DNA of 51,218 nt from the NCBI GenBank assembly GCA_016792685.1, contig JAEULQ010000069.1, positions 1 to 51,218 of the forward strand, written 5' to 3'. The notes under the pieces were generated by a model, which did not search any database, was not told the DNA's origin, and saw nothing but the letters and a program-made list of their open reading frames with translations. The position numbers and the translations under genes were made by a program. The stretch comes from Tabrizicola sp. (GTDB lineage: Bacteria > Pseudomonadota > Alphaproteobacteria > Rhodobacterales > Rhodobacteraceae). This document shows, one piece after another, positions 18,583 through 51,218 of the stretch. Each line of letters opens with the position of its first letter. Positions within the stretch are counted from its first letter, which is position 1.

Positions 18583-18630
18583 ACTGCTGCTCCCTTAACT
18601 GGAAGCGATGGGAATGAAAAGCCTTGCCGA

Positions 18631-27194: not shown

Positions 27195-27261
27195 CGATTT
27201 CTTCAAAGAAATCGGATCGGAGCCTTCAAAGGCTCCGGTGCGGAATTTTCGAAAATTCCGC
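27195..27261. repeat. Triple palindrome element, copy 1
   Basis: Three near-perfect palindromes stand in a row in the 104-base gap between convergent trpE and the YibQ gene. They are 27195 to 27214 (arms CGATTTCTT/AAGAAATCG, loop CA), 27218 to 27237 (arms CGGAGCCTT/AAGGCTCCG, loop CA) and 27240 to 27261 (perfect, centre TTTTCGAAAA). The same first and second palindromes recur base for base at 49714 to 49733 and 49691 to 49710. Possible roles are bidirectional transcription end, mRNA stabiliser or mobile REP-like element. Confidence 0.85.
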
Positions 27262-35891: not shown

Positions 35892-35952
35892 GGGCGGGCC
35901 TTCGGGTTTTGACCATTTCAGACTAGAATCGCGCTCTGGTTCGTGCAACGAA

Positions 35953-35976
35953 AAACTCGACACTCATGTCGAGTTT
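35953..35976. promoter_or_regulatory. Candidate TetR operator between divergent genes
   Basis: Ten-base arms AAACTCGACA and TGTCGAGTTT flank a four-base centre CTCA, a perfect 24-base inverted repeat. It lies 62 bases upstream of the flavin oxidoreductase start and 57 bases upstream of the TetR start, the usual place for an operator controlling both genes. Confidence 0.65.
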
Positions 35977-36033
35977 CTGCCGCCCTGCTGTGACGACTTG
36001 TGCAGGGGCATGGCGGGCGACTAGGCTCGGGTC

Positions 36034-36678
36034 ATGACGATGACCCAGACAGAACGCGGCTGGCGCGGAACACCGGATGTTTGGCTTGATGCCGCCTATG
36101 AGCTTCTGGTCGAAGCCGGGGTCGAGGCAGTCAAGGTGATGCCGCTGGCCGAAAGGCTTGGCCTCTCGCGCACATCGTTCTACTGGCACTTTGCGGACCG
36201 CGAGGCGCTGCTGGCGGGTTTGGTCGAAAGATGGCGGGCCAAGAACACCGGCAGTCTGGTTGCGTGCTGCGAGGCCCCCGCCGCAACCATCGCCGAAGCC
36301 ATGCTCAATCTGATCGACTGCTGGGTGGACCCGGGCCTTTTCGACAGCCGGTTGGAGTTCGCGATGCGGACCTGGTCCTTGACCGACCCTGCTGTCGAGG
36401 CAGCAATGGCCGATGCTGATTCCAGGCGGATTGCGGCCATCACTGCGCTGTTCCGGCGGTTTGGCTATCCGGAAACCGAGGCGGACACCCGGGCGCGGAC
36501 GCTATACCTGACCCAGGTGGGCTATATAGCCTTGCGGTCAAGCGAGAGTTTCGATGTCCGCATGGGGCGGATCCCGGCCTATGTCCTGACCTTTTCCGGG
36601 GTTGCCCCAAGCCCCGCGGAAATCGCCGCCTTTCGCGACCGCCACGCGGTCAGGACAGACGCAGAAGCAGGGACATGA
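36034..36678 (+). CDS. TetR-family transcriptional regulator
   Basis: A 214-residue protein whose N-terminal helix-turn-helix (DVWLDAAYELLVEAGVEAVKV, PLAERLGLSRTSFYWHFADREALLAGLV) is typical of TetR regulators. The C-terminal ligand domain is not family-specific. It is divergent from the flavin oxidoreductase and probably represses it through the palindrome between them. Its 3' end overlaps the convergent MarR gene by 29 bases. Confidence 0.9.
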   Translation: MTMTQTERGWRGTPDVWLDAAYELLVEAGVEAVKVMPLAERLGLSRTSFYWHFADREALLAGLVERWRAKNTGSLVACCEAPAATIAEAMLNLIDCWVDPGLFDSRLEFAMRTWSLTDPAVEAAMADADSRRIAAITALFRRFGYPETEADTRARTLYLTQVGYIALRSSESFDVRMGRIPAYVLTFSGVAPSPAEIAAFRDRHAVRTDAEAGT

Positions 36679-37069
36679 GAAGCCGCGCCTCGTCCTTGGT
36701 CAGCGGCGCAACGGTTTCGGCCGAGACCTGAAGCGCTGTCTTCAGCCTTGCGGCGAAAAGCTGGTTTCCAGCTTCCGTCAGGGTGACGGTCAGGCGCCGC
36801 CGGTCGGAAAGGTCCGCCGTCGTGGCGACATAGCCAAGCTTGGCAAGCCGGTCGACGACCCCCTTGATCGTCGCTGCATCCATGGCTGTCGCCCGGCCGA
36901 GGTGGTTCTGCGACAGGGGGCCGGTTTCGGCCAGACGCGCCATGACGGCAAACTGGGTTGTCGTGACCTCGGGGATTGCGGCGGCAAAGATCGCCAGATG
37001 CCGCTGCGTCACCCGACGCAGGACATAGCCAATCTGGTCATCGAGACGATAGTCGGACGTGTCAGTCAT
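36650..37069 (-). CDS. MarR-family transcriptional regulator
   Basis: A 139-residue winged-helix regulator. Helices around QIGYVLRRVTQRHLAIFAAAI and TQFAVMARLAETGPLSQNHLGRA, and the wing DRRRLTVTLTEAG, are canonical. I use the ATG at 37069 (MTDTSDYRLDDQ). It is divergent from the molybdenum hydroxylase operon, so it is the likely ligand-responsive regulator of that operon, probably sensing the aromatic substrate or a product as MarR proteins do. Confidence 0.9.
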   Translation of the reverse strand: MTDTSDYRLDDQIGYVLRRVTQRHLAIFAAAIPEVTTTQFAVMARLAETGPLSQNHLGRATAMDAATIKGVVDRLAKLGYVATTADLSDRRRLTVTLTEAGNQLFAARLKTALQVSAETVAPLTKDEARLLMSLLLRLS

Positions 37070-37109
37070 GACTCCGCGATACGCGTTGCGTCGGCCGCAT
37101 GCAAGATTG

Positions 37110-37138
37110 TTGACAGAGTCGATTGACGTGCTCAATAT
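37110..37138 (+). promoter_or_regulatory. Promoter of the molybdenum hydroxylase operon with candidate MarR site
   Basis: TTGACA (37110 to 37115), 17 bases, then CAATAT (37133 to 37138) is a strong sigma-70 match. The inverted repeat ATTGA-CGTGC-TCAAT (37122 to 37136) overlaps the spacer and -10 and is a natural place for MarR binding. Transcription would begin near 37145. Confidence 0.6.
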
Positions 37139-37145
37139 CGTTTCT

Positions 37146-37997
37146 ATGCAAATGAAATCGGGGTCTGCCGTGCTGGACTACTCCCGACCGAAATCCCTGG
37201 ACGAGGCGCTGCGGACGCTCGCGGGCGGTGATTGGCGGGTGCTGGCCGGGGGGACCGATCTTTACCCGGTGGCGGGGCCCCGGCTTGCGGGGCCGGTGCT
37301 GGATGTCACGGCGATTCCCGGATTTTCGGGACTGTCCGGCGATCAGGACTTGCGGATCGGGGCCGCGACGACCTGGACCGATATTGCCAATGCGAATTTG
37401 CCGGAGGCGGCGCGGGCCCTGCAACAGGCGGCGCGGCAGATCGGCGGGCGGCAGGTGCAGAACGCCGGGACGATTGGCGGCAATCTTTGCAATGCCTCAC
37501 CTGCCGCAGACGGCGTACCGCCGCTTCTGGCCCTTGGGGCCGAGGTCGAGTTGGTCTCGGCCGCAGGCACGCGGCGGCTTGGATTGCAGGACTTTCTGCT
37601 TGGCCCGCGCCGGACCGCCCTGCGCACAGGCGAAATCCTGGCCGCCATCGTGGTTCCGGGGTCCGGGCTGCGCGGGCGATCGGCTTTCGTGAAACTTGGG
37701 GCGCGGTCGCATCTGGTGATCTCGATCGCGATGGTTGCGGCCCGGCTGGCGGTCGATGGGGATCGGGTAACGGAAGCCGCCATCGCGGTTGGCGCGGCTT
37801 CGCCCGTCGCTGTGCGATTGCCACAGGTCGAAGCCGCCCTGGTGGGAGCCAGGGTTGCCGAGGCTGCACTGCGGGTGACGTCGGCGGATGTGGTGGCCTC
37901 TCTTGCGCCGATCGACGACGTGCGGGCGACGGCTGCCTATCGGCGCGCGGCGGTGGCCGAACTTGTGCGGCGCGCGGTGAGCGAGGCCCTGGCATGA
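37146..37997 (+). CDS. Molybdenum hydroxylase FAD-binding subunit (CoxM/XdhB-like)
   Basis: Carries electrons from the iron-sulfur subunit to the acceptor through FAD. The PCMH-type FAD motifs VLAGGTDLYPVA and QNAGTIGGNLCNASPAADG are present, with the C-terminal CO-dehydrogenase flavoprotein domain (AFVKLGARSHLVISIAMVAARL). The start is uncertain: the ATG at 37146 would be almost leaderless given the promoter position, while a GTG at 37170 with GGGG upstream would give a product starting at VLDYSRPKSLDEAL. The stop overlaps the next gene (ATGA), so both subunits are coupled. Confidence 0.88.
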   Translation: MQMKSGSAVLDYSRPKSLDEALRTLAGGDWRVLAGGTDLYPVAGPRLAGPVLDVTAIPGFSGLSGDQDLRIGAATTWTDIANANLPEAARALQQAARQIGGRQVQNAGTIGGNLCNASPAADGVPPLLALGAEVELVSAAGTRRLGLQDFLLGPRRTALRTGEILAAIVVPGSGLRGRSAFVKLGARSHLVISIAMVAARLAVDGDRVTEAAIAVGAASPVAVRLPQVEAALVGARVAEAALRVTSADVVASLAPIDDVRATAAYRRAAVAELVRRAVSEALA

Positions 37998-40666
37998 TCG
38001 CCTTTTCGCTCAATGGCCGGGAGGTCGAGGTCGAAGCGCCACCTGCCGAGCGGCTGTCGGAAGTCCTGCGCGAGCGGCTTGGCATGGTCGGGACCAAGGT
38101 TGGCTGCGATGCCGGCGATTGCGGGGCCTGCACGGTCCTTCTGGACGGGGCCTCGGTCTGCGCATGTCTGACGCCAGTGGCGCAGGCGGAAGGGCGCAAG
38201 GTCACGACGGTCGAGGGCAACACCCCCACGCTGGCCCGACTTCGCGCCGCGTTTCTGGCCCATGGCGCAGCGCAATGCGGGATCTGTACGCCCGGAATGC
38301 TGATGTCGGCGGCGGAACTTCTGGAGGAGACCCCGAAGCCCACGGCGGATAAGGTCGAGGCTGCGCTTGGCGGGGTTCTGTGCCGTTGCACCGGATATCG
38401 CAGCATCATTGCGGCAGTGGTTTCCGCCGGTCAGGAGGCGCTGGCCCCGACCGTAGCCGATGGGGTCGGCGCTTCGGTGCAAAGGCTTGATGGCGCGGCC
38501 AAAGTGGCGGGGGACAGCTTCGGGGCCGATGCCTGGCCCTCGGGCGCGCTGGTGGTTAAGGCGGTGCGTTCGCCCCATCCCCATGCCGGATTCGAGTTTG
38601 GGGATCTGGATGCCTACCGTGCCCGGCCCGGTGTGGCAGCCGTCTTCACCGCAGCCGATATCCCTGGCCGCAATGCCTTTTCCGTGATCCCGCCCTTTGC
38701 CGACCAGCCCGCGATCGCCGCCTCGCCCGCCCGGTTCCGGGGCGAATGCGTGGCGCTCGTGGCCTTTGACGCCGGGGCGGAGCCCGACCTTGCGGGTTTC
38801 CCGATCACCTGGACGCCCTTGCCTGCCCTTGCCTTACCTGCCGAGGCCGAGGTCGGGGCGCTGCTCCATCCGAACCGCCCCGGCAATCTCTTGATCGAGG
38901 GGCGGGTCATCAAGGGCGATGCCGCCGCCGCGCTCGCCGCCAGCGCCCATGTCGTCGAAGGCGGGATGACCACGGGGTTTGTCGAACACGCCTATATCGA
39001 GCCCGAGGCCGGCGCGGCATGGATGGAGGGCGAGACCCTGGTCATTCGTGCCTGCACCCAGGCACCGGGCATGGACCGCGAGGACACCGCGGCAATCCTG
39101 GGCCTGCCGATGGAGCGAGTGCGCATCATCCCCTCCGCCGTGGGCGGGGGGTTCGGGTCAAAACTCGACATCTCGCTGCAACCCCTGATCGGTCTGGTGA
39201 CGCTGAAGACCGGACGGCCCAGCCGGATGATCTATTCGCGCCACGAAAGCATGACCTCGACCACCAAGCGCCACCCGGCGGAAATGCGGGGGCGCATCGG
39301 CTGCGACGCTTCGGGCCGGATCACCGGGATCGAGTTCGAGGGGCGCTTCAACACCGGGGCCTATTCCAGCTGGGGCCCGACCGTCGCGAACCGGGTGCCG
39401 GTGCATGTCTCGGGGCCGTATTTCACGCCCGCGATTACCGCCAGGGCCCGGGCAATCCACACCCATGGGCCGGTTTCCGGCGCCTTCCGGGGCTTCGGCG
39501 TGCCGCAAGGTGCGCTGTGGCAAGAGACGCTTTATGACCGGCTGGCCGACAAGGCCGGGCTGGACCGGCTGGAGTTCCGGATCCTGAACGCGCTTCGCGA
39601 CGGCGATGCCTCGGCCACGGGGCAGGTCTTGCGGGCCACTGGCATCCATGACTGCCTGACGGCCCTGCGGCCCCACTGGACCCGCGCTTTGGCCGAGGCC
39701 AAAGGCCAGCCAGGCCGCGGGGTCGGTGTCGCCTCCTGCTGGTACGGCTGCGGGAATACCGCGCTGCCGAACCCTTCGACCATCCGCATCGGCCTGTCGC
39801 CGAAGGGAGAGGTCGTGCTGCATCAGGGCGCAACCGACATCGGCCAGGGCTCGAACACCGTCATCGCCCAGATCGCCGCCGAGGCACTGGGCCTGCCACT
39901 TGCCGCCTTCCGACTGATCGGCCCGGATACCGGACTGACTCCCGATGCGGGCAAGACCTCGGCCAGCCGCCAGACCTATGTTTCGGGCCGCGCCGCCAAG
40001 GCTGCGGCCGAGAAGTTGCGGGGCGAGCTTCTGCGTCGGGCGAATGCGGGCGAGGGGGCAACGCTGGCACTGGAAGGGGCGGAACTTGTGGTTCGGGACC
40101 GGGGAACGACCACCCGCATCGACCTCGCCGCCCTGCCGCCCGATGCCCATGGCCATTCCGTTACGACCGAGGCGAGCTATGACCCGCCGACCACAGCCCT
40201 TGATGCGAACGGGCAGGGTGCGCCCTATGCCGTCTACGGCTACGGCGCGCAGATGGTGGAGTTGGAGGTCGACCGGGCACTTGGGACGGTAAAGCTTCTG
40301 AAGATCACCGCCGCGCATGATCTGGGCCGGGCCATCAACCCGATGCTCGCGCGGGGGCAGATCGAGGGCGGGATCGCCCAGGGCATCGGTCTTGCCCTGA
40401 TGGAGGAATACCTGCCGGGCCGGACCGAGAACCTGCACGATTACCTGATCCCGACTTTCGGCGATGTCCCCCCGATCGAAAGCCTGCTGATCGAGGTCCC
40501 CGACCCCGAAGGCCCGTACGGTGCCAAGGGCCTTGGCGAACATGTGCTGATCCCGACCGCCCCCGCGATCCTGAATGCGATCCGCCATGCGACCGGCGCC
40601 GAGATCACCCGGGTCCCGGCCCTGCCGCATCGGGTTCTTGAAGCCCTGGAGGGCCGCGATGACTGA
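37994..40666 (+). CDS. Molybdenum hydroxylase, fused 2Fe-2S and molybdopterin subunits
   Basis: An 890-residue fusion. Residues 1 to 150 bind two [2Fe-2S] clusters: C38, C43, C46, C58 (plant-ferredoxin type) and C95, C98, C130, C132 (CGICTPGM, LCRCTGY). From about 160 the XDH-type Moco domain follows, with VGGGFGSKLD, GAFRGFGVPQGALWQE, TDIGQGSNT and the active-site Glu in KGLGEHVLIPTAPA. The enzyme hydroxylates a carbon next to a ring nitrogen using water. The AFRGFGVPQ loop groups it with purine/nicotinate-type enzymes and not with CO dehydrogenase. It overlaps the next gene by eight bases. The substrate is unknown; context suggests an N-heteroaromatic acid. Confidence 0.88.
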   Translation: MIAFSLNGREVEVEAPPAERLSEVLRERLGMVGTKVGCDAGDCGACTVLLDGASVCACLTPVAQAEGRKVTTVEGNTPTLARLRAAFLAHGAAQCGICTPGMLMSAAELLEETPKPTADKVEAALGGVLCRCTGYRSIIAAVVSAGQEALAPTVADGVGASVQRLDGAAKVAGDSFGADAWPSGALVVKAVRSPHPHAGFEFGDLDAYRARPGVAAVFTAADIPGRNAFSVIPPFADQPAIAASPARFRGECVALVAFDAGAEPDLAGFPITWTPLPALALPAEAEVGALLHPNRPGNLLIEGRVIKGDAAAALAASAHVVEGGMTTGFVEHAYIEPEAGAAWMEGETLVIRACTQAPGMDREDTAAILGLPMERVRIIPSAVGGGFGSKLDISLQPLIGLVTLKTGRPSRMIYSRHESMTSTTKRHPAEMRGRIGCDASGRITGIEFEGRFNTGAYSSWGPTVANRVPVHVSGPYFTPAITARARAIHTHGPVSGAFRGFGVPQGALWQETLYDRLADKAGLDRLEFRILNALRDGDASATGQVLRATGIHDCLTALRPHWTRALAEAKGQPGRGVGVASCWYGCGNTALPNPSTIRIGLSPKGEVVLHQGATDIGQGSNTVIAQIAAEALGLPLAAFRLIGPDTGLTPDAGKTSASRQTYVSGRAAKAAAEKLRGELLRRANAGEGATLALEGAELVVRDRGTTTRIDLAALPPDAHGHSVTTEASYDPPTTALDANGQGAPYAVYGYGAQMVELEVDRALGTVKLLKITAAHDLGRAINPMLARGQIEGGIAQGIGLALMEEYLPGRTENLHDYLIPTFGDVPPIESLLIEVPDPEGPYGAKGLGEHVLIPTAPAILNAIRHATGAEITRVPALPHRVLEALEGRDD

Positions 40667-42095
40667 CGCCCCCGAAAAGATCCGCTGCGATGCCTGCCCG
40701 GTGATGTGCTACATCGCGCCGGGCCAGACCGGGGCCTGCGACCGTTATGCCAATGCCGACGGTCGGATCGTGCGCACCGACCCGGTGGTGATGCTGTCCC
40801 ATGCCGTCGAGGCCGGGGGCCGTGTGGTGCCCTTTGCCGTGCGGGACTGGGACGGTTCACCTGTTCCGGCCGATGCTTTCGTGACCGGGATCGGCTCGGG
40901 CACCACTTACCCGGACTACAAGCCCGCGCCGTTTATCGTGTCCTCTCAAGTGGAGGGCGCGGATATGGTCACGGTGGTGACCGAGGCGATTTTCTCGTAC
41001 TGCGGGGTCAAATTGAAGATCGACACCGACCGCTTCCTTGGCCCGGAAGGCGCAGTCGTCCGGGTCGATGGCGAGCCTGTGGGCCATGTCACGACCGCCG
41101 AATACGGAAGCCAGATGCTGTCCCTTGGCGGGGTCCATCACCTGACCGGGGGCGGCAAGGCCGAGGGGCGGGTGACCTGTGCGGCCATGCTCGCACTTTG
41201 CAATGGCGAGGCGGTCGAGATGGAGATCGAGGGCGGCTCGCGCGTGGTCGTGCAGGCCGGGCAGGCGCCGGTGGTCGATGGGGTGCGGGAACGGCGCATG
41301 CGGGTCGGCTGCGGCTCGGCCACGATCGGGATGTTCGCGGTCCAGTGGAAGGGGCTGGTGGATGAGGTGGTGGTGGTCGACGACCACATCACCGGGGTCG
41401 TGAGTGAGCATCAGGCTGGGAAAGTGATCGGCTGGGAGCCGACGGGGATAAAGATCAAGGGGCACCGCTCGACGCCCGGGCGCTATTTCCGCGTCTCGGA
41501 GCCGGGGCTTGGTTGGGGCGGCACAAAGCTGACCGATCCGCTGGAGATCCTGGGCGAGTGGAACCCGAAGAAAGGTGCGCGGCCGGGACTGCGGCTGTTG
41601 ATGGTGTCCACCACGGGCGAGGAATTTGCCTATTACGTGCTGGACGAGGCGCTGCAGCCGGTGCGGCATGACTTGCCAGACCAGTTGAAGAAAAGCGTCG
41701 AACTCATTGACGAGAATTGCGAACCGTCGCTTTGTACGGTCCTCTTCGTGGGCGGGGCTGGGGGCAGCTTGCGGGCGGGGGTGACGAAGAACCCGGTGCG
41801 GCTGACCCGTTCGGTGCAGGGCGGGGTCACCCGGCTGACCTCGGGCGGGGCGGAGTGCTATATCTGGCCGGGCGGCGGGATCACCTTCATGGTCGATGTC
41901 ACGCGGCTACCGAAAGGGGCTTTCGGCTATGTTCCGACACCCGCATTGGTCGCGCCACTGGAGTTCACCCTGCCGCGCACCGATTATCTGGCGATGGGCG
42001 GGCATGAGGAGATGATCCGCACGCTGGACCAGTCGATGGCCGAGGGCGGGGAATACCCAACGGAAGCGAGGGTCGAGCCATGGCCCGAAGCGTGA
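40659..42095 (+). CDS. 6-hydroxynicotinate reductase-like iron-sulfur protein
   Basis: A 478-residue protein that I match from memory to proteins annotated 6-hydroxynicotinate reductase, which reduce the hydroxylated pyridine ring to a tetrahydro-oxo lactam in clostridial nicotinate fermentation. Cysteines C10, C13, C17 and C27 (RCDACPVMCYIAPGQTGACDRY) form a likely [4Fe-4S] site. The rest is soluble with glycine-rich loops and no other recognisable domain. An IGSGTTYPDYKP stretch resembles the (S/T)GA(S/T) flavinylation motif of ApbE targets, though imperfectly. GGAGG lies six bases before the ATG, which overlaps the hydroxylase gene. Family assignment is fair; the actual substrate is inferred from neighbours. 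Confidence 0.7.
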   Translation: MTDAPEKIRCDACPVMCYIAPGQTGACDRYANADGRIVRTDPVVMLSHAVEAGGRVVPFAVRDWDGSPVPADAFVTGIGSGTTYPDYKPAPFIVSSQVEGADMVTVVTEAIFSYCGVKLKIDTDRFLGPEGAVVRVDGEPVGHVTTAEYGSQMLSLGGVHHLTGGGKAEGRVTCAAMLALCNGEAVEMEIEGGSRVVVQAGQAPVVDGVRERRMRVGCGSATIGMFAVQWKGLVDEVVVVDDHITGVVSEHQAGKVIGWEPTGIKIKGHRSTPGRYFRVSEPGLGWGGTKLTDPLEILGEWNPKKGARPGLRLLMVSTTGEEFAYYVLDEALQPVRHDLPDQLKKSVELIDENCEPSLCTVLFVGGAGGSLRAGVTKNPVRLTRSVQGGVTRLTSGGAECYIWPGGGITFMVDVTRLPKGAFGYVPTPALVAPLEFTLPRTDYLAMGGHEEMIRTLDQSMAEGGEYPTEARVEPWPEA

Positions 42096-42114
42096 CCGGG
42101 GTCCGTGAAATCGC

Positions 42115-42140
42115 GCAGCCGCACGGACGCGCGCGGCTGC
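42115..42140 (+). other. Stem-loop after the reductase gene
   Basis: Arms GCAGCCGC and GCGGCTGC flank a ten-base loop. It lies 20 bases after the reductase stop in a stretch (42096 to 42229) that has an open frame but weak third-position GC bias, which is why I treat the stretch as untranslated. Confidence 0.45.
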
Positions 42141-42229
42141 AAGACCGTGTCTCGCCTCTGGCCTGCGGCCAACCGGCTCGGGGTGCCTTCGGCGGGGATG
42201 TTCCGCGAAAGACGAGTCAGGGGGCGGTT

Positions 42230-43048
42230 GTGGCCCTTCTGCCGGACGGACGGCTGCATCTTCAGCACGGTCCGATCGACATCGTGGCCGAGGCCTTTGG
42301 CGCGCCAGTCGCAGTCCGGGCAGCCTATGCCCGGGCGGCGGGGCGATTTGCGACGGTGCTGGAGGAACTGGTGGCCGAGCTTCCCGCGCTCCGGTCAGAG
42401 GATAGGCCGGTCCAGGGCATCATCGCCCGCCGGATGGCAGCGGCGGTGGCCCCGTTCCGGCCGGCTTTCATTACCCCCATGGCGGCAGTGGCAGGGGCGG
42501 TGGCCGAGGAGGTGCTGGGCGCGCTGACGGGCCCGGGGATTGCCCGGGCCTATGTCAACAACGGCGGGGATATCGCCGTCTGGCTGGGACCGGGGGAGCG
42601 CGTGACCTGTGCTCTGGCCGCGACGGGCGGGATGGACCGTGTTACTGTGCACGAAGTGGATCCGGTGCGGGGGATTGCCACATCGGGCTGGCGGGGACGG
42701 AGCGTTTCTCTGGGGATCGCGGATGCGGTAACGGCTCTGGCCCGGACGGCGGCGATGGCGGATGCGGCGGCGACGATGATCGCCAATGCGGTCGATCTGA
42801 CCCATCCCAATATCGGGCGGCGACCGGCGCGGGAGTTGCAGTGTGACAGTGATCTTGGCGAGCGGCTGGTCACGGTCTCGGTCCCCCGGCTGTCGGCTTC
42901 GGAGCGGGCAGAGGCGCTGGAGGCCGGGCTCCGGGCGGCGGAAGGCTTCCGGGCGCGCGGTTTGATTGAAGGGGCGGCGCTTTTCCTGCAGGGTGAGTTG
43001 CGGGTGTCGGGCGCTTTGGCCCTGGGGCGGGAGGATGCAAGTGACTGA
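42230..43048 (+). CDS. UPF0280 family protein, ApbE-like
   Basis: A 272-residue protein starting VALLPDGRLHLQHGPIDIVAEAFG, which is where UPF0280 homology normally begins. The NNGGDIAVWL and AMADAAATMIANAV segments parallel the GGD and the late ADA(L/A)AT motif of ApbE FAD:protein FMN transferases, so the fold is probably shared. The GTG at 42230 with AGGGGG upstream is my preferred start. An ATG at 42080, overlapping the reductase by 16 bases, would add 50 residues with atypical codon use. Its place beside an iron-sulfur reductase suggests a cofactor-attachment role, which is inference. Confidence 0.78.
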   Translation: MALLPDGRLHLQHGPIDIVAEAFGAPVAVRAAYARAAGRFATVLEELVAELPALRSEDRPVQGIIARRMAAAVAPFRPAFITPMAAVAGAVAEEVLGALTGPGIARAYVNNGGDIAVWLGPGERVTCALAATGGMDRVTVHEVDPVRGIATSGWRGRSVSLGIADAVTALARTAAMADAAATMIANAVDLTHPNIGRRPARELQCDSDLGERLVTVSVPRLSASERAEALEAGLRAAEGFRARGLIEGAALFLQGELRVSGALALGREDASD

Positions 43049-43622
43049 TTTCGCAGTGCGCAAGATCGTGGTTCAGTTGGAAGAGATCCGGCATGAGGGC
43101 GGGCCTTTGGTCACGCCAGCGCCGGTGAGGGGTGCAATCTACGCGATCTGCGCGAACCCTTTCGCCGGCCGTTTCGAGCCGGATCTGCAGCCGGCGATGG
43201 AGGTGCTGAAACCCCTGGCCCTGGAGCTGACCGACCGACTGGTGGCGGCCCTTGGTGGGCGCGAGGGGATCGACGCCTATGGCAAGGGGGCGATCGTCGG
43301 CGAGAATGGCGAAAGCGAACATGGCGCGCTCTGGCATGTCGCAGGCGGCTACGGGATGCGCGACCGGCTGGGCGAGTGCCGGGCCATCGTGCCTTCGGCA
43401 ATGAAGGTCGCGGGCCTGGGGGCGACGCTGGACATACCTCTGGGCCATCTGAACGCGGCCTATGTCCGGTCGCGCTTCGACGTGATCACGGTGGCCTGCG
43501 CCGATGGACCGCGGGCGAATGAGGTCCTTTTCGCGCTGGCCATGGCGCGGGGCGGGCGCGTGCACAGCCGGATGGGCGGACTGGAGATCCATCAGGTCAA
43601 GGGGGAGGACGGGTTGCGGTGA
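43041..43622 (+). CDS. DUF1185 'amino acid synthesis' family protein
   Basis: A 193-residue protein matching the PF06684 (AA_synth, DUF1185) family, whose known structures have a chorismate-mutase-like fold and unknown activity. Visible conserved segments are VQLEEIRHEGG, CANPFAGRFEPDL, YGKGAIVGENGESEHGALWH and LNAAYVRSRFDVITV. I use the GTG at 43041 because GGGAGG lies six bases upstream; an ATG at 43035 is in frame but sits directly against that site. It overlaps both neighbours. Members often sit with amidohydrolases and ABC importers in catabolic clusters, as here. Confidence 0.8.
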   Translation: MTDFAVRKIVVQLEEIRHEGGPLVTPAPVRGAIYAICANPFAGRFEPDLQPAMEVLKPLALELTDRLVAALGGREGIDAYGKGAIVGENGESEHGALWHVAGGYGMRDRLGECRAIVPSAMKVAGLGATLDIPLGHLNAAYVRSRFDVITVACADGPRANEVLFALAMARGGRVHSRMGGLEIHQVKGEDGLR

Positions 43623-45022
43623 ACTTCGGTCAGGGCCCAAAATTCTTCGAAGAATTTTGCCAAGAGTTTTCGAAAATTCTTGGGACCAGCGGGCTGGCCG
43701 TCGTGCTGTTCCCTGGCGTCGCTCTTGCCTGCGCCCTGCCTCCCTCGGTGATCCTGACACTCCCGACCGGCCATTACATCACCGCGGCCGCCCTGACCGT
43801 GGCCCTCACGGCGCTTCTTGGAGCGGCCGCGCACCGGCTGCCAGCCATGGAGGAGCGGCCGCTGGTCCGCCTGCGCGCGATCCCGGTCACGCTGACCTCA
43901 TACCTCGCCTTCATCGCGTTTCTGGGTCTGGTCTTCGTAGGGTTCTTCGGTGAGCGGGACCCGATGCACAACTTGATGACCCTGGTCTTCTGGACAGGAG
44001 TCTGGATTGCCGTGCCGCTCGGCTCGATGCTTCTTGGCAATCTCTGGCGTCCGATCAATCCCTGGACCGGTCCGGTGCGTATCGCGCGGACCTTGCTGCG
44101 CCGCAGCGGTCGTCTGGGGCTTTCGCGGTTCGGCCACTGGCCAGCGGTCGCGGGCTACGCCGGATTTGTCTGGTTCCAGATGGTTTCGCTTTACCCGGAC
44201 GACCCGGCCGTTCTGGCCCGGGTTGCCCTGGGGTATTGGACCCTGATCTTCGTCCTTGCCGTGGCCGAGGGTGAGGACTGGCTGGAAGAGGGCGAATTCC
44301 TGACTGTCCTTTTCGGTCTGATCGCACGGGTCGCGCCGATCTGGGGCGTGGCGCGCCCGGACGGCTTGCAGCTGATGCGCGGCTGGCCCGGGACGCAAGT
44401 GCTCGCCATGCCGCCTCTTGGCCCTTCGGCCGTGGTCTTCGTCAGCCTAGCCCTTGCCGCGCTGACCTTTGATGGGCTGGCCGAGACCTTCTGGTGGCAG
44501 GCGCTGATTGGCGAAAACCCGTTGGAGCCCACTGGGCGCAGCGCAGTCATTTGGCAGAACAGCGCTGGACTTCTGGCCATCTGGGTGCTGACCCTGGGCC
44601 TGATCCTTGCCGCCATTGCGCTTGGTCGCCGGATCGGCGGCGGCTTTGCCACGGGGCCGGTGATGCTTTCGTTCCTTGCCATCGCGGCCGGGTATCACGC
44701 GGCGCATTACCTGGTGATGCTGCTTACCGCCGGGCAATACACGATCGCGGCGCTAAACGACCCGCTCTTTACCGGCGAAAGCTGGTTGGGTCTGCCGCCC
44801 TACTATGTCTCTTTCGGGTTCCTGACCGACCCGCGGGTGATGCCCTTCATCTATGCGGCGCAGTTCATGGCGATCCTCGGCGCACATCTGCTGGCGGTCG
44901 TCCTGGGACTGAAACTTGCGGGGCAGGGTGCGCGGCCGGTGGCGCATCTGCCGATGACGGTCTTGATGGTGGCTTACACGGTGTTGGGTCTCTGGCTGTT
45001 GTCCACGGCCAGAACTGGATGA
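43619..45022 (+). CDS. Polytopic membrane protein of unknown function
   Basis: A 467-residue protein with about ten to eleven hydrophobic helices, for example VILTLPTGHYITAAALTVAL, AIPVTLTSYLAFIAFLGLVF and the last LPMTVLMVAYTVLGLWLLS. It contains paired acidic loops (EGEDWLEEGEF) and many Trp and His residues in loops. I do not recognise a family. The GTG at 43619 overlaps the previous stop (GTGA) and has GGGGGAGG upstream. The first 22 codons run straight through a palindromic repeat element, so either the repeat is translated (FFEEFCQEFSKIL) or translation begins at a downstream GTG (43703). Confidence 0.7.
   Translation: MNFGQGPKFFEEFCQEFSKILGTSGLAVVLFPGVALACALPPSVILTLPTGHYITAAALTVALTALLGAAAHRLPAMEERPLVRLRAIPVTLTSYLAFIAFLGLVFVGFFGERDPMHNLMTLVFWTGVWIAVPLGSMLLGNLWRPINPWTGPVRIARTLLRRSGRLGLSRFGHWPAVAGYAGFVWFQMVSLYPDDPAVLARVALGYWTLIFVLAVAEGEDWLEEGEFLTVLFGLIARVAPIWGVARPDGLQLMRGWPGTQVLAMPPLGPSAVVFVSLALAALTFDGLAETFWWQALIGENPLEPTGRSAVIWQNSAGLLAIWVLTLGLILAAIALGRRIGGGFATGPVMLSFLAIAAGYHAAHYLVMLLTAGQYTIAALNDPLFTGESWLGLPPYYVSFGFLTDPRVMPFIYAAQFMAILGAHLLAVVLGLKLAGQGARPVAHLPMTVLMVAYTVLGLWLLSTARTG
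43638..43683. repeat. Double palindrome element, copy 3, inside a coding start
   Basis: Two abutting palindromes: a perfect 22-base one (43638 to 43659, centre CTTCGAAG) and a 24-base one with a single wobble pair (43660 to 43683, centre TTTTCGAAAA). They resemble the elements at 27195 and 49667 in size and TTCGAA-type centre. The frame stays open through them. Confidence 0.75.
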
Positions 45023-45101
45023 AAAGACTGGACAATTTCGGGGTGCTTACCCCTCGTGACAATCAGGGCCCGGCAAGGGCTGCAACAGTGGAGAGACGGA
45101 C

Positions 45102-46373
45102 ATGACCAATTTCGCTAATCCCACCCGCCGCGGCCTCTTGATGGCCGGAGGCGCGGGCCTTCTGACCGCAGCGCTGCCCGGCTATGTTGGCGCGCAGGCC
45201 GCGCCGATCAAGATCGGTTTCCAGCTGCACCGCACCGGTATCGGGGCCTCTTACGGCCGCTGGTACGAGCGGACGGCCCAGGCCGCGCTGAAGCTGATCA
45301 ACGAGGGCGGCGGGATCAATGGTCGGCCGGTAGAGATCCTGTTCGAGGACGATGCAACCGATCCGAAGCGGGGCTCGGAGGTCGTGGACAAGCTGACCCA
45401 GTCGGATGGCTGCGACGTGGTGATGGGCACGCTTTTCAGCCATGTCGTCATCGGCTCGGCCCCCCGCGCGGGTGAGCTGAAGGTTCCCTACCTCGTCTGC
45501 TCGGAAGGCTACCATGTCGCCAGCGGCATGCTGAACCGCTGGACCCTGCAGCCTGGCATTACCGATGTGCGCAGCCAGATTTCGTCGATGGCGCCCTGGG
45601 TCAGTGGGAACCTCGGCAAGAAGGTCACGATGATCTTCCCGGACTTCGCATTCGGCCATGACCACCGCGATTTCTTTACCGCCGCCATGGCCGCGCAGGG
45701 CGGCGAGGTGATCGCCCAGATCGCCATTCCGCCGACCGAGACCAGCTTTACCCGCTACTTCCCGCAGATCCCGGCCGAGACGGAAGTCCTTTATCACGTC
45801 ATGGTCGGCCCGGCCGTCCTGACCTTCGTGAAGGAGTTGGGCGAGTTCTATGGCTCGGGCGCCAAGCCGCAGATCTTCGGCTTCATCGACAGCCTCGAGG
45901 CCGTGGACACCGCGACCCCGGGTCTGGAGTTTCTGGAAGGCACCCATTTCTGGGAAGCCCACAACCGGGTGAAACCCGCCGATGCAGGCGAGCATGAGGG
46001 TCACTACCGCGAGGCAGTGGGGGTCGACGACAACGGCGCCAGCATCAGCGATGCGGCGGATGTGGCGACCTATTCCCACATGTTCTCGACCTGGGAGACG
46101 CTCTTCGCGATCAAGGCCGGGATGGAGGCCGCAGGCTACGCAGGACCGGCCGACCGGCAGAAGTTCGTCGAGGCGATGGAGGCGATGACCGACCTGCCCT
46201 ACGGGATCGAGCGTCCGCAAGGGGCCAAGGTGTTCAACGGCAAGACCCACCAGGTCTTCGGTACCCAGAACATCAGCCAGGTCCAGGGTGGCAAGCTGGT
46301 CCGTGTCCATTCGACAAAGCTGGAAGACGGTCTCTACCCCGATGCGGTCGACTACACGACGATGTCGTTCTGA
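45102..46373 (+). CDS. ABC transporter substrate-binding protein, branched-chain amino acid/amide type
   Basis: Periplasmic receptor of 423 residues. The N-terminus has a Tat-like signal (TRRGLLMAGGAGLLTAALPGYVGAQA). The Peripla_BP_6 fold follows: IKIGFQLHRTGIGASYG, ALKLINEGGGINGRPVEILFEDDATDPKRGSEVVDKL, VTMIFPDFAFGHDHRDFF. It is first of five transporter genes in order SBP-LivH-LivM-LivG-LivF. The ligand is unknown; receptors of this class bind amino acids, amides, urea or aromatic acids, so the ring compound handled by the cluster is the natural guess. GGAGAG precedes the ATG. Confidence 0.9.
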   Translation: MTNFANPTRRGLLMAGGAGLLTAALPGYVGAQAAPIKIGFQLHRTGIGASYGRWYERTAQAALKLINEGGGINGRPVEILFEDDATDPKRGSEVVDKLTQSDGCDVVMGTLFSHVVIGSAPRAGELKVPYLVCSEGYHVASGMLNRWTLQPGITDVRSQISSMAPWVSGNLGKKVTMIFPDFAFGHDHRDFFTAAMAAQGGEVIAQIAIPPTETSFTRYFPQIPAETEVLYHVMVGPAVLTFVKELGEFYGSGAKPQIFGFIDSLEAVDTATPGLEFLEGTHFWEAHNRVKPADAGEHEGHYREAVGVDDNGASISDAADVATYSHMFSTWETLFAIKAGMEAAGYAGPADRQKFVEAMEAMTDLPYGIERPQGAKVFNGKTHQVFGTQNISQVQGGKLVRVHSTKLEDGLYPDAVDYTTMSF

Positions 46374-46389
46374 CCCTCGCCAGCGCAGA

Positions 46390-46417
46390 TTGCCCACCCT
46401 TTGCGAAGGGTGGGCAA
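46390..46417 (+). other. Strong hairpin between receptor and permease genes
   Basis: A 12-base-pair perfect stem (TTGCCCACCCTT / AAGGGTGGGCAA) with loop TGCG begins 16 bases after the receptor stop. No T tract follows, so it more likely stabilises or processes the receptor mRNA than ends transcription. The 15 bases GCAGATTGCCCACCC at its left side recur at 13218. Confidence 0.7.
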
Positions 46418-46450
46418 ATTGCCCGCGTTTCCCAGCAATCGGAACCCCAA

Positions 46451-47329
46451 ATGGCCTTTGGACCCTTCCTGCTACTTGCCCTGATGGAGGGCCTCGTGAC
46501 CTCGGCTGTCCTTGCTTTGGCGGCGGCGGGGCTTTCGCTGGTCTTCGGGGTCATGCGGGTCGTCAATGTTGCCCATGGGGCATTCTTCATGCTGGGCGCG
46601 GTCCTTGCCTGGGCGGTCGCCACTTTCGTCCCCGGCCCGCCAGCTGTCGCCTTCATTGCGGCGCTGGCCATCGCGCCCCTGGCTGTGGCGGCCCTTGCCG
46701 CTGCCGCCGATGGGCTGATCCTGAAGCGGCTGGACTATGACCCGGAGGCAACCATCGTCGCAACGATCGGCCTGCTCTACATGATCGAGCAGGCTGCGCT
46801 GAGCCTCTATGGCCCGAACGCGAACCCGGTTCAGGCCCCGTTCGAATGGCGCATCCAGCTGCCATGGTTCGGCTATTCCGGCTACAAGCTCTTCGTTGTC
46901 CTTGCGGCCGCGCTCGTGCTCCTTGCCCTCTGGGCCTTCATGACCCGCACGAAGGCGGGCCTGATCATGCGGGCTACACAGGTGGACCGCACGACTGCCC
47001 GCGCTTTCGGGATCAATGTCGACCGCGTCTATATGGGGACCTTTGCCCTCGGCGCTGGGCTCGCCGCACTGGCCGGAGTGCTGATCGTGCCGATCAGCCA
47101 GGCGCATTACCTGATGGGGGGCGATCCACTGCTGCTGTCCTTCATCGTCGTCATCATCGGCGGCCTGGGCAGCCTTCGCGGAACCCTTATCGCGGCCCTG
47201 GTCATCGGCCTGTCCGACGGGGTGATCTCGATGTTCTTCACGCCCACGCTGGCCAAGATCCTTGCCACGCTTCTGGTCGCCATGGTCCTGGTCTTCCGCC
47301 CGCAGGGCCTGTTCGGAGCAAAAGCGTGA
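46451..47329 (+). CDS. ABC transporter permease, LivH type
   Basis: A 292-residue inner-membrane protein with about eight hydrophobic helices. The LivH-type segments LSLVFGVMRVVNVAHGAFFMLGA and ATQVDRTTARAFGINVDRVY are clear, the latter being the EAA loop contacting the ATPases; FIVVIIGGLGSLRGTLIAAL is also diagnostic. It pairs with the next gene to form the channel. The stop overlaps the GTG of the next gene. Confidence 0.93.
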   Translation: MAFGPFLLLALMEGLVTSAVLALAAAGLSLVFGVMRVVNVAHGAFFMLGAVLAWAVATFVPGPPAVAFIAALAIAPLAVAALAAAADGLILKRLDYDPEATIVATIGLLYMIEQAALSLYGPNANPVQAPFEWRIQLPWFGYSGYKLFVVLAAALVLLALWAFMTRTKAGLIMRATQVDRTTARAFGINVDRVYMGTFALGAGLAALAGVLIVPISQAHYLMGGDPLLLSFIVVIIGGLGSLRGTLIAALVIGLSDGVISMFFTPTLAKILATLLVAMVLVFRPQGLFGAKA

Positions 47330-48258
47330 AAGTCTGGCTTCTGCATCTGGTCCTGATCGCGGCGCTTTTTGCCGCGCAGTTCCTGCTGTCGCCCTACCAT
47401 GCGACCAACCTTGCCCGGATCATGGTGCTGGCCGTCTTTGCCATGGGCTACAACCTCGCCTTCGGCTACACCGGCCTTCTCAGCCTTGGCCATGCGCTGC
47501 TGTTCGCCGCGGGAATGTATGCGGCTGGTCTTTCAGCCCAGATTCTGGGACTGACTGCGGGGCCCGCCTTGATCCTTGGCATCCTTGGCGGCGGGCTCCT
47601 GGCGGCGGCGGTCGGCCTTCTGGCGCTGCGCACCGCCGGGGTCAGCTTCATGATCGTGACGCTGATGTTCGCCCAGGCCGGATATCTGACGATCCTCTAT
47701 TTCGGGGCGACCACTGGCGGCGACGAGGGCTTTACCCTTCCTGCCGCGTCACGGAGCATTGCGGGCTTCGACCTTTCAACCGACACGCCCCGCTTTCTTG
47801 CTGCTCTTGCGCTTTTCGGAGCGGGCCTTCTGGCGAGCCTTGCCATTGTCCGCTCTCCTTTCGGCCGGACCATGGTTGCAATCCGGGAAAACGAAGAGCG
47901 GAGCCGGATGCTGGGCTACAATCCCTTTGCCATTAAGCTTGCGGCTTTGGTGATCTCCGGGCTGTACGTAGGCGCCGCGGGGGCGGCTTACGCGCTTCTC
48001 TTCGGCTATGCGGGGGCGAGCTTTGCGACGATCCAGTATTCCATCCTGCCGATGCTTTACGTCCTTCTGGGCGGTGCCGGCACGACACTCGGCCCCTTCC
48101 TTGGCGCGGCCCTGATGTTCGCGCTGATCGAGGCGGCATCCGGCCTCACCTCGGCCTATCTTTTCTTCGTGGGGGCGGCCCTTGTCGCCCTGGTCCTCTT
48201 CGCGCCGAAAGGCATTCTGGGCACGATCCGGGAAAGGTGGGTCAAATGGCTCCCCTGA
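47326..48258 (+). CDS. ABC transporter permease, LivM type
   Basis: A 310-residue permease. MVLAVFAMGYNLAFGYTGLLSLGHALLFAAG is split across helices in the LivM manner, REN-EERSRMLGYNPFAIKLAAL forms the cytoplasmic loop, and MLYVLLGGAGTTLGPFLGAA is the C-terminal conserved segment. The start is the GTG at 47326, whose GTGA overlaps the previous stop. It overlaps the LivG gene by 13 bases. Confidence 0.93.
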   Translation: MKVWLLHLVLIAALFAAQFLLSPYHATNLARIMVLAVFAMGYNLAFGYTGLLSLGHALLFAAGMYAAGLSAQILGLTAGPALILGILGGGLLAAAVGLLALRTAGVSFMIVTLMFAQAGYLTILYFGATTGGDEGFTLPAASRSIAGFDLSTDTPRFLAALALFGAGLLASLAIVRSPFGRTMVAIRENEERSRMLGYNPFAIKLAALVISGLYVGAAGAAYALLFGYAGASFATIQYSILPMLYVLLGGAGTTLGPFLGAALMFALIEAASGLTSAYLFFVGAALVALVLFAPKGILGTIRERWVKWLP

Positions 48259-48950
48259 TCGAGACGCGCGGTCTCACACTCTATTTTGGTGGGCTGAAGG
48301 CAGTGGACGGGGTCGACTTCAGTCTGAACCCCGGTGAAATCCACGCGCTGATTGGCCCGAACGGGGCCGGAAAGACGACCTTTGTCAGCCTGCTTTCCGG
48401 CCGCAGGTTGCCCCAGTCCGGCACGATCCGGCTTGCGGAAGAAGATATAACCCACCTTCCTGCCCATGCCCGGGTTCGCAAAGGCATTGCCTACACGTTC
48501 CAGATCACCTCGATCTTTCCGCGTCTGTCTGTCTTTGACAACGTGGCCCTGGCCGTCCAGTCGCATGGCGCCCGCGACCTCGCGGCGAAGACCCGTGCGG
48601 CCCTGACCCGCGTCGGCCTGCAGGGGCTGGAAGAACAGGAGGCGCAGACCCTGGCCTATGGCCACCAGCGTCTTCTGGAGCTTGCCATGGGACTCGCGCT
48701 CAACCCGCGTCTTCTGATTCTGGACGAGCCAACCCAGGGACTGGCGGCAAGTGAGATCGAGGGGTTCAAAGCGCTGGTCGCCAGCCTTGTGCCGCAGACG
48801 ACCGTGCTGCTGATCGAGCACAACATGGAGGTGGTGATGGATCTTGCCACAAGGATCACTGTGCTGAATTTCGGCCAGATCCTAGCGACCGGCACACCGG
48901 CCGAGATCCGAGCCAACCCGGCCGTGCAGGAGGCTTACCTTGGCGCTTGA
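48246..48950 (+). CDS. ABC transporter ATP-binding protein, LivG type
   Basis: A 234-residue ATPase. Walker A is GPNGAGKTT, Walker B is LLILDEP with the switch His in IEHNMEVVM, and the signature is the LivG-type LAYGHQRLLELAM rather than LSGGQ. I prefer the ATG at 48246 (MAPLIETRGL) to a GTG at 48237. The 3' end overlaps livF by 11 bases. Confidence 0.93.
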   Translation: MAPLIETRGLTLYFGGLKAVDGVDFSLNPGEIHALIGPNGAGKTTFVSLLSGRRLPQSGTIRLAEEDITHLPAHARVRKGIAYTFQITSIFPRLSVFDNVALAVQSHGARDLAAKTRAALTRVGLQGLEEQEAQTLAYGHQRLLELAMGLALNPRLLILDEPTQGLAASEIEGFKALVASLVPQTTVLLIEHNMEVVMDLATRITVLNFGQILATGTPAEIRANPAVQEAYLGA

Positions 48951-49638
48951 GGTGCAGGGCATCACCGCCGGCTACGGGCCGGTCACCGTGCTGAATGGTG
49001 TGAATTTCCGCGCCGAACCCGGCCGGATCACCTGCCTCATGGGCCGCAACGGGGTGGGGAAGTCGACCTTTCTCAAATGCCTGATGGGGCTGCTTCCGGC
49101 CACCGAGGGCACGATCCACCTGAACGGCCTGGCGCTGGAAGGCCTGCCCGCCCACGAAGTCCCGAAGCGCGGCCTGGCCTATGTCCCGCAGGGTCGGCGT
49201 CTCTTCGGGCCGCTGACGGTTGCGGAAAACCTGGCCGTCGGCGGTCTGGTGCAGGGCAATGACGAGAACACGCTGCACCGCGTGCTGACCCTGTTCCCGC
49301 GCCTGCGGGAACGCCTGACCCAGACCGCGCAGACCCTTTCCGGTGGCGAGCAGCAGATGCTGGCCATTGCCCGAGCGCTATGCCTGAACCCGAAGGTCCT
49401 GCTGCTTGATGAGCCGACCGAGGGGCTGCAGCCGTCGATGATCACTTTGATCCAGGAGGCGGTCATGTCGCTGAAAGGGCAAGGCGTCGCTGTCGTGCTG
49501 GTCGAGCAGCGCGTCGACGCGGTGCTGCGGCTGGCAGATCGGGTCTCCTTCATGCTCGCGGGCCGAGTGGAGGAGACGAGGGATGTCAAGGGCTTGGACG
49601 CAAGCGATCCGGTCTTCCGAACCTATGTGGGGGTGTGA
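48940..49638 (+). CDS. ABC transporter ATP-binding protein, LivF type
   Basis: A 232-residue ATPase with Walker A GRNGVGKST, signature LSGGEQQMLAIARAL and Walker B LLLDEPTEGLQPSM. It is the second ATPase of the importer. The start is a TTG at 48940 (TTGGCGCTTGAG), preceded seven bases upstream by GGAGG and overlapping livG; no ATG or GTG is placed sensibly. A palindrome element follows in the 119-base gap before the hydantoinase gene. Confidence 0.92.
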   Translation: MALEVQGITAGYGPVTVLNGVNFRAEPGRITCLMGRNGVGKSTFLKCLMGLLPATEGTIHLNGLALEGLPAHEVPKRGLAYVPQGRRLFGPLTVAENLAVGGLVQGNDENTLHRVLTLFPRLRERLTQTAQTLSGGEQQMLAIARALCLNPKVLLLDEPTEGLQPSMITLIQEAVMSLKGQGVAVVLVEQRVDAVLRLADRVSFMLAGRVEETRDVKGLDASDPVFRTYVGV

Positions 49639-49666
49639 ATGAAGCTTCTCCCGATCCGCAACGCGG

Positions 49667-49733
49667 CCGGAATTTTTGAAAATTCCGGACCGGAGCCTTC
49701 AAAGGCTCCGATGCGATTTCTTCAAAGAAATCG
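49667..49733. repeat. Triple palindrome element, copy 2
   Basis: The palindromes are 49667 to 49688 (arms CCGGAATTTT/AAAATTCCGG, centre TG), 49691 to 49710 and 49714 to 49733. The last two are identical to 27218 to 27237 and 27195 to 27214. Compared with copy 1 the three units stand in opposite order, while the asymmetric CA loops keep the same strand, so this is not a simple inversion. Confidence 0.85.
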
Positions 49734-49757
49734 CGCGCCCATCGGGAGCGCGCGTGT

Positions 49758-51218
49758 ATGACCGGTCTTGTGGCGGGCGTCGATGTGGGCGGTACTTTCA
49801 CCGACCTGGTGATCTTTGATCCCGCGTCCGGGGCTGTGCGGCTGGCCAAGGTGCCGACGACGCTGCCCAATCAGTCGGTGGAGTGCTGAATGCTTTCGCC
49901 GAGGCCGGGGCCGACCTGGCGGCCATTGACCTTATCGTGCACGGCACTACGACCACGACCAATGCGGTGCTGGAACGGCAGCTTTCCAAGTCGGGGCTTA
50001 TTACCACCGAAGGTTTCCGCGACGTGCTGGAGCTTGGCCGCCGCACCCGCCCGCAAGCCTATGGCATGCATGGCCGCTTCACCCCCGTCATTCCGCGCGA
50101 CCTGCGGCTGGAAGTGCCGGAACGGATGGATGCGCGGGGTCGGGTGGTGACGCCTCTGGACGAGGCGTCCCTTCGCACGGCGGTGCTCCGGTTGCGCGAG
50201 GAGGGCTGCGAAAGCCTGGTGATCCATTTCCTTCACGCCTATGCCAACCCAGCCCACGAGCTGCGGGCGGGCGAGATCGCGAAGGAGCTTTGGCCCAATG
50301 ATTACATCACCTTGGGCCACGTTCTTCTTTCGGAATCGCGCGAGTACGAGCGGGGCGTGACCGCGGCCGTGAATGCCTCGGTCCAGCCGCTTCTGGAGCG
50401 CTATGTGGCCCGGCTGGCGGAGGAACTGGCGGCCAAGGGCTATGCCCGCGACCTTCTGGTGATGAACGGAAACGGAGGCATGGTCGCTGCGCGGGACGTG
50501 GCGAAAGAGGCGGTGAAGACAGTGATGTCGGGGCCTGCCTCGGGGGTGATGGCGGCGGTCGCGACGGGCCGCCGGGCCGGTATGGCGAACCTCCTGACCT
50601 ATGACATGGGCGGCACCTCGACCGACGTGGCGATGATCAAGGGCGGGGTCGCGCCGGTCTCGAACGAGATCGAGGTGGAATACGCCATGCCAATCCATGT
50701 GCCGATGGTCGATGTGCGGACGGTGGGTGCTGGCGGCGGCTCGATCGCGCGAATGGATGCAGGCGGCATGCTGCGGGTCGGGCCGGAGAGCGCGGGCTCG
50801 ACACCGGGGCCGGTCTGCTATGGCAGGGGGGGCACGCGGGTCACGATTTCGGACGCAAACCTGATCCTGGGTCGACTGCCCGCCAGCCGTTTCGGCCAGG
50901 CGGCGGAGGCGGCTTTCGCGGCGATGCGGGATCAGATTGCGGAGCCTTTGGGCCTGTCGGTAGAGGCCGCGGCGGAGGCGGTGATCCGGATCGCCAATAC
51001 CCATATGGCGGGGGCGATCCGGATGGTGTCGATCTCGCTTGGGGCCGATCCGCGGGATTTTGCGCTGTTTGCCTTCGGCGGGGCGGGGCCCTTGCATGCG
51101 GTGGCTTTGGCGAAAGAGTTGAATGTTCCCAAGGTCTTGATCCCGGCCCGGCCCGGTATCACCAATGCCTTGGGCTGCGTGGTGGCGGACCTGCGGCATG
51201 ACTTCGTCCGCACCCTGA
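49758..51218 (+). pseudogene. hyuA: Hydantoinase/oxoprolinase subunit A, frameshifted and cut by window end
   Basis: The ATG at 49758 opens MTGLVAGVDVGGTFTDLVIFD and reads to TLPNQSVEC, then stops at 49889. From 49883 the +2-shifted frame continues without a stop to the window end with full family motifs: IDLIVHGTTTTTNAVLER, LLTYDMGGTSTDVAM, VPMVDVRTVGAGGGSIAR, FALFAFGGAGPLHA. One missing G in the stretch AATCAGTCGGTGGAGTG (expected NQSGGVLNAF) explains the shift. These ASKHA-fold subunits use ATP to hydrolyse cyclic amides such as 5-oxoproline or hydantoin. It may be a recent mutation or a sequencing error; the rest of the gene appears under normal constraint. The B subunit would be expected just beyond the window. 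Confidence 0.88.

Follow-up and report, generated by a model that had tools for sequence, protein, structure and literature searches.

Two reductive routes of nicotinate degradation related to our subject have been described. In the fermentation carried out by Eubacterium barkeri, according to the accessible portions of PMC9304392 and PMC3511419, a molybdenum-dependent hydroxylation is followed by reduction to 1,4,5,6-tetrahydro-6-oxonicotinate (THON) and by hydrolytic opening of the ring, with 2-formylglutarate given as the product of the enamidase (PMC9304392). An aerobic reductive route, from nicotinate through 6-hydroxynicotinate to THON, is reported for Azorhizobium caulinodans and tied to a gene cluster in Bradyrhizobiaceae that contains Hnr (6-hydroxynicotinate reductase), an ABC transporter and two further proteins with no assigned function, which are probably UPF0280 and DUF1185 (PMC3511419, accessible text). 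Since the accessible text also says that genes for the first three steps were found by BLAST from E. barkeri (PMC3511419), these clusters presumably carry an enamidase. Here we describe a related operon in Tabrizicola sp. that ends in a gene for HyuA, one of the two subunits of HyuAB. The window is the whole contig JAEULQ010000069.1 (C52; 51,218 nt) of a draft genome of 3.58 Mb in 136 contigs. The contig is Rhodobacter-like, and the closest Hnr relatives among the matches listed include records named Rhodobacter or Tabrizicola, with 90-92% identity.

The difference from the Azorhizobium and Bradyrhizobiaceae clusters lies in the ring opener: the window has HyuAB, and when all 8 candidates in its genome (88.86% complete) were scored, no enamidase match was found at E 1e-60. 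E. barkeri differs further in being an anaerobe and in using an amidohydrolase enamidase (PDB 2vun) and a split nicotinate dehydrogenase (3hrd); its downstream steps also differ. We consider it likely that the operon serves to import the substrate and to degrade nicotinate by an aerobic reductive route, with HyuAB opening THON in place of enamidase. This reading draws on gene content, linkage, exclusion of enamidase and predicted folds, and every reaction in it is a predicted one. The pathway itself was already known, and the part that appears to be new, with good comparative support from sequences, is the swapped ring opener. Among the papers listed in a literature search, mostly from outside the subscription journals, we found none that ties hydantoinase or HyuA to THON or to nicotinate catabolism.

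In the proposed pathway, Liv-type proteins would import the substrate. A molybdenum hydroxylase would then convert nicotinate to 6-hydroxynicotinate; it consists of an FAD subunit (positions 37146..37997, plus strand; PF00941 and PF03450) and a fused 2Fe-2S/Moco subunit (37994..40666, plus strand; PF00111, PF01799, PF01315, PF02738 and PF20256). The Hnr-like protein (40659..42095, plus strand), whose orthologues are annotated as 6-hydroxynicotinate reductase, would reduce this product to THON, an enamide lactam with a six-membered ring, and would probably receive its electrons from a donor of the ferredoxin type. HyuAB would use ATP to open THON to 2-(aminomethylene)glutarate, which would give ammonia and 2-formylglutarate. 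UPF0280 would load flavin onto Hnr, and DUF1185 would handle the formylglutarate. The first-pass annotation had joined uptake, hydroxylation, ring reduction and ATP-driven opening into one pathway, and both linkage and mutual exclusion of openers favor this union at the level of predicted reactions. It had also proposed a HyuA-type opener as a new variant in a probable aerobe. The swap with enamidase agrees with the mutual exclusion, but the aerobic THON route is not new.

In some of the Hnr clusters, HyuAB is replaced by an amidohydrolase. The best solved relative of this amidohydrolase is the E. barkeri enamidase (2vun, E 7.5e-112). We surveyed 289 alphaproteobacterial genomes drawn regardless of Hnr, in which a HyuA orthologue was called at 54% identity or more and 775 bits. 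Hnr is present in 44 of the 289. Of these 44, 17 have enamidase (orthologues with 70-100% identity) and 26 have HyuA; none of the 44 has both, and a single one (G226, 70% complete) has neither. In the first opener searches a few top candidates were scored in each genome, in the repeats every candidate. With all candidates scored, the best HyuA in the 17 enamidase genomes, G226 and G082 is 49% identical; in the 26 HyuA genomes and G226, just one enamidase-like match reaches E 1e-60, and it is 41% identical (in G104). Among the 245 Hnr-negative genomes, one (G082) has enamidase and two (G114 and G217) have HyuA by the criteria given above. A contig-edge HyuA fragment with 65% identity is found in G127, also Hnr-negative, and five more such genomes have HyuA at 708-741 bits (G224, G182, G095, G120 and G011).

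We then added 31 named genomes and 28 further Hnr genomes from 398 drawn from the phylum (32 with Hnr, 4 already counted). Of the resulting 103 Hnr genomes, 64 have HyuA only, 32 enamidase only, 5 both and 2 neither (Fisher p 5e-19, which ignores relatedness). In all 5 genomes with both, the second gene is an enamidase paralogue of 60-63% identity in a separate cluster (L186, L187, L188, L214 and L215), which consists of MarR, the enamidase-like gene, two DUF1185 genes and ABC genes and has no Hnr within 20 kb. Given the mutual exclusion of the two openers and nicotinate as the likely substrate, HyuAB probably stands in for enamidase, acting as a lactamase that depends on ATP.

One locus was rejected as HyuA-type. 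The HyuA of L081 (Acidisphaera sp. L21; 54% identity, 701 bits) stands in an unrelated setting and resembles the 708-741-bit band of Hnr-negative genomes, and we reassigned this genome to those with neither opener. L081 and L205 have Hnr and a distant DUF1185 (44%), with neither UPF0280 nor enamidase and with no molybdenum subunit within 10 kb, and their HyuA is off-type only. They are the clearest exception to the pattern.

Genomes with the same opener could simply be relatives. Under this explanation, the enamidase/HyuA pattern reflects two old lineages with fixed gene content and no functional exchange. We placed the openers on a quick tree, inferred by maximum likelihood from 100 Hnr proteins; three of the 103 genomes (G064, G231 and G028) were omitted for want of a whole Hnr. 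The opener labels are strongly clustered on the best tree, with at least 8 changes against a mean of 26.5 for shuffled labels, and the tests that take relatedness into account fail the 0.05 level, both of which fit common ancestry. However, at least 5 of the changes are forced by supported branches. Moreover, Rhodobacter amnigenus (L023), which falls in the window's well-supported group and whose Hnr is 82% identical to that of the window, has an enamidase and no HyuA. We therefore regard ancestry alone as a very improbable explanation.

The pair test that we adopted counts every genome as found; an earlier version omitted genomes with neither opener and counted those with both as HyuA. Among branch-disjoint pairs that differ in enamidase, HyuA is opposite in 4.9 of 6 and does not differ in 1.1 (median p 0.06). 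If the 60-63% clade is counted as enamidase, 5 of 10 pairs are opposite and 5 show no difference (p 0.06). Neither count has a pair that changes in the same direction. With L081 counted as HyuA, the tree has 9 changes and 6 of 6 pairs are opposite. Hnr sequences of the two opener types interleave on the tree, and both types occur within a single family twice (G631 versus G674 in f1, and G210 versus G104 in f104). Repeated exchange is expected if HyuAB and enamidase share a job, and the independent events are few.

HyuA (49758..51218, plus strand, running to the contig end; PF05378 and PF01968) would be the ATP-binding subunit of the proposed THON lactamase. At its start lies GVDVGGTFTD, which we take to be the ATP-binding motif of HyuA. 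Contig C9 of the same genome begins with a HyuA C-terminus (1-543), followed by a separate HyuB and, beyond it, by what looks by eye like an opposite-strand efflux system; HyuB also adjoins HyuA in the relative L085. The HyuA end and HyuB of C9 are probably the continuation of the window's HyuA. An exact overlap of 9-200 bases was sought between the ends of the two contigs and none was found, so their adjacency is inferred. The plasmid NZ_CP124537 of Fuscovulum ytuae has the identical gene order, with both HyuA and HyuB at full length.

The best NCBIfam model for the window's HyuA is the caprolactamase subunit CapA (390 bits, below the cut-off of 1000). In L085, where both proteins are full-length, HyuA reaches 474 bits against CapA and HyuB 307 bits against CapB; with the subunits of acetophenone carboxylase the two reach 276 and 124 bits, respectively. 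Judged by these scores, HyuAB is a relative of caprolactamase and not caprolactamase itself. The closest described enzymes, CapAB and OplAB, share with it the two-subunit HyuA/HyuB organization, the GVDVGGTFTD motif and the best NCBIfam match. The window type differs in falling under the caprolactamase cut-offs and in its predicted substrate, an enamide lactam acid. Per the accessible text of PMC11033972, OplAB, a member of the HyuAB family, opens the six-membered delta-valerolactam with ATP.

These relationships also bear on the possibility that THON is opened by an unrecognised hydrolase and that the role of HyuAB lies at a later step or outside the pathway, for example in an ATP-dependent carboxylation or in the handling of a side product. 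Acetone and acetophenone carboxylases are indeed among the relatives of HyuA. In addition, two genomes without an Hnr match (L194 and L195) have HyuAB of the same subfamily as the neighbour of an unrelated molybdenum hydroxylase (26-27% identity), and perhaps the same lactam-opening logic is applied there to a different ring. However, both subunits lean to caprolactamase over carboxylase, and enamidase is absent from exactly the genomes that have HyuAB. Recurrent neighbour families without an explanation do exist, but by eye, with no family-library scan, none is hydrolase-like. A later or separate role is thus quite unlikely.

The gene neighbourhood was studied in further relatives. A genome scan gave at least 581 Hnr relatives, of which the best 80 were kept, and our linkage counts refer to a tblastn table of 123 loci. 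These loci are not an even sample, because they were chosen by similarity to the window's Hnr or from the class search. Where 1 kb or more is in view downstream of Hnr (120 loci), UPF0280 is its neighbour in 119; where the downstream view extends to 5 kb or more (107 loci), DUF1185 is found in 94. Of the 115 loci that cover 3.5 kb or more upstream, 110 have a molybdenum-subunit match; the matches in L151 and L155 are only 26-27% identical. The conserved core is therefore the hydroxylase, Hnr, UPF0280 and usually DUF1185. A ferredoxin-NADP reductase-like gene is present in 15 of the 123 loci. The linkage of these genes, which the first-pass annotation had made a test of its proposal, recurs across many relatives. 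Past HyuAB or enamidase, no clear candidate for a conserved downstream gene was seen by eye among the recurrent neighbours.

A nicotinamidase gene, often divergent from the hydroxylase, occurs in 29 of the 123 loci, and the one representative that was scanned matches NF008623 (222 bits, cut-off 174). Fourteen of the 29 have HyuA, one has enamidase and 14 have neither in view. Because of this linkage in relatives, the substrate can be narrowed to nicotinate or nicotinamide. The known aerobic reductive route of nicotinate and its Hnr cluster are consistent with nicotinate. The Moco domain matches both chains into which nicotinate dehydrogenase is split in 3hrd (230 and 211 bits), and its best single chain in the PDB is 4-hydroxybenzoyl-CoA reductase (1rm6, 312 bits); sequence alone thus does not fix the substrate.

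That last match leaves room for a different explanation of the exclusion, namely that it is one of substrate: enamidase clusters would degrade nicotinate, and HyuAB clusters another or an N-methylated pyridine acid, such as picolinate, isonicotinate, homarine or trigonelline. Rieske oxygenases in 9 of the 123 loci (L086, at 17541-18611, and eight others), and additionally in L212, point the same way. Their nearest match is dicamba O-demethylase (164 bits), NdmA N-demethylases also appear among the matches, and the enzymes may feed N-methylated pyridine acids, for example trigonelline, into some of the clusters. However, the Rieske genes accompany both kinds of opener. Nicotinamidase is likewise linked to HyuAB-type loci and to enamidase-type loci (L123, as well as L190 and L192 from outside Alphaproteobacteria) alike. 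Also, the Hnr proteins of the two types are interleaved on the tree, down to the families f1 and f104 that contain both. A literature search showed no gene cluster of this kind for the homarine/trigonelline pathway, and we retain the pathway only as an alternative. Overall, a difference in substrate is an unlikely cause of the exclusion.

Several observations nevertheless weigh against HyuAB as a nicotinate-pathway lactamase. The window's HyuA is truncated by the contig end and is also frameshifted, with a one-base gap relative to 5 of 5 aligned relatives, such that the first frame ends at 49889. The HyuA and HyuB of L085 miss the NCBIfam cut-offs for caprolactamase (1000 each) and those for acetophenone carboxylase. 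The relatedness-aware pairs are few and reach only p 0.06, five genomes contain both openers, and the 67% identity value that separates enamidase from its paralogues was set after the 60-63% clade had been seen. HyuA is also found in three Hnr-negative genomes (G114, G217 and G127). The window's own cluster lacks nicotinamidase. Finally, among the 92 loci that extend 8 kb to either side, 24 have neither opener nearby, and the linkage of the opener is therefore often at the level of the genome only.

We now turn to the reductase and its neighbours. Hnr, which we assume to be an iron-sulfur flavoprotein, has four cysteines (C10, C13, C17 and C27) that are invariant in 46 of 46 sequences. No Pfam family reaches its cut-off with this protein, nor does it match one in NCBIfam. 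Its predicted model is middling (pLDDT 76), and a Foldseek search with it gave nothing at E 0.001 or below. The first-pass annotation had named an Hnr homologue with shown activity on a non-heterocyclic substrate as evidence that would speak against its proposal, and a non-exhaustive search turned up none.

UPF0280 (42080..43048, plus strand) is a candidate Hnr maturase. Its label was taken from an annotated orthologue, and it matches NF003322 with 362 bits (cut-off 290). In Foldseek, its AlphaFold model (pLDDT 94.5) retrieves the uncharacterised DUF375 protein 2o34 first, followed by ApbE (5mgy, E 1.2e-4), FmnB and other flavin transferases, with 12 more ApbE-type chains at E 0.001 or better. 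The matches to ApbE and its kin have E values of 1e-4 to 1e-3 and probabilities of 0.96-1.00, with TM-scores of only 0.3-0.5 and rmsd of 8-15. The predicted fold is thus remotely ApbE-like. Unlike the ApbE flavin transferases, which are only 9-15% identical to it, UPF0280 has 2o34 as its nearest solved protein and would have a cytosolic reductase as its partner. If the flavin of the E. barkeri Hnr is bound covalently, UPF0280 may mature Hnr as a flavin transferase. No tie between ApbE or UPF0280 and Hnr was found among the papers listed in the same literature search.

Flavin-transferase target motifs are SGAT-like, with an acceptor threonine. The GSAT sequence at Hnr residues 219-222 was considered as the acceptor site and rejected: alanine replaces the threonine in 9 of 46 sequences, and it is therefore not a conserved acceptor. 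The flavin could be attached elsewhere among the invariant serines and threonines of Hnr.

DUF1185, also called AA_synth (43035..43622, plus strand; PF06684), has the solved relatives 3byq and 2qtp. It accompanies both ring openers and occurs in the Hnr-free enamidase-like cluster as well, and therefore probably acts after ring opening. That it acts on formylglutarate is a guess. We also considered DUF1185 as a partner resembling TgnF of trigonelline degradation, which is said in the accessible text of PMC7913881 to stimulate an aldehyde oxidation, and did not adopt this idea, which goes back to that one statement.

All genes named in the first-pass annotation are present. Their common direction holds from the FAD subunit to HyuA, whereas the overlap of their ends is interrupted by four gaps of 79, 77, 2 and 119 bases. 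The MarR-family regulator (36650..37135; PF01047), which had been placed in the same direction, is in fact on the minus strand, divergent to the operon, and is kept beside the cluster in many relatives. The membrane protein (43619..45022, plus strand) has about 11 hydrophobic segments by hydropathy and matched neither Pfam nor NCBIfam at E 0.001. The Liv-type importer, all on the plus strand, comprises a substrate-binding protein (45102..46373), permeases 1 (46451..47329) and 2 (47332..48258), and ABC ATPases 1 (48237..48950) and 2 (48940..49638). The permeases and ATPases were identified from annotated orthologues in L085. The substrate-binding protein has weak NCBIfam matches under the cut-off, and its L085 orthologue is annotated as an ABC substrate-binding protein.

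Upstream of the cluster, a gene for an OYE-type oxidoreductase and a TetR gene (33867-36678) are kept in close relatives; the best PDB match of the oxidoreductase is 6qkg, 'NCR' (238 bits). Near-palindromic elements of the form GAATTTT[C/T]GAAAATTC occur at three sites in the window (27243-27258, 43664-43679 and 49670-49685), one of them at the start of the membrane-protein reading frame and another in the gap that separates HyuA from ATPase 2. When 2 mismatches at most are allowed, there are 6 strand matches, compared to 0 in 100 shuffles.

A fuller proposal is that HyuAB is an ATP-dependent THON lactamase swapped many times with enamidase, that UPF0280 serves Hnr alone, as an ApbE-type flavinyl transferase of the cytosol, and that DUF1185 turns 2-formylglutarate, or the enamine, into glutarate semialdehyde. 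We advance this combination tentatively, as doubtful when taken whole. If true, two unexplained families and a reductase of unassigned fold would acquire functions together, and UPF0280 would gain a testable role. Nicotinate commonly arises from the breakdown of NAD, and the THON route has so far been tied to an enamidase from one anaerobe. Two unrelated enzymes, one cost-free and the other ATP-burning, appear to have been swapped for one step across many families, which would make this step a clean test case of non-orthologous replacement. It would also provide a concrete substrate for a HyuAB subfamily that is currently named only hydantoinase/oxoprolinase.

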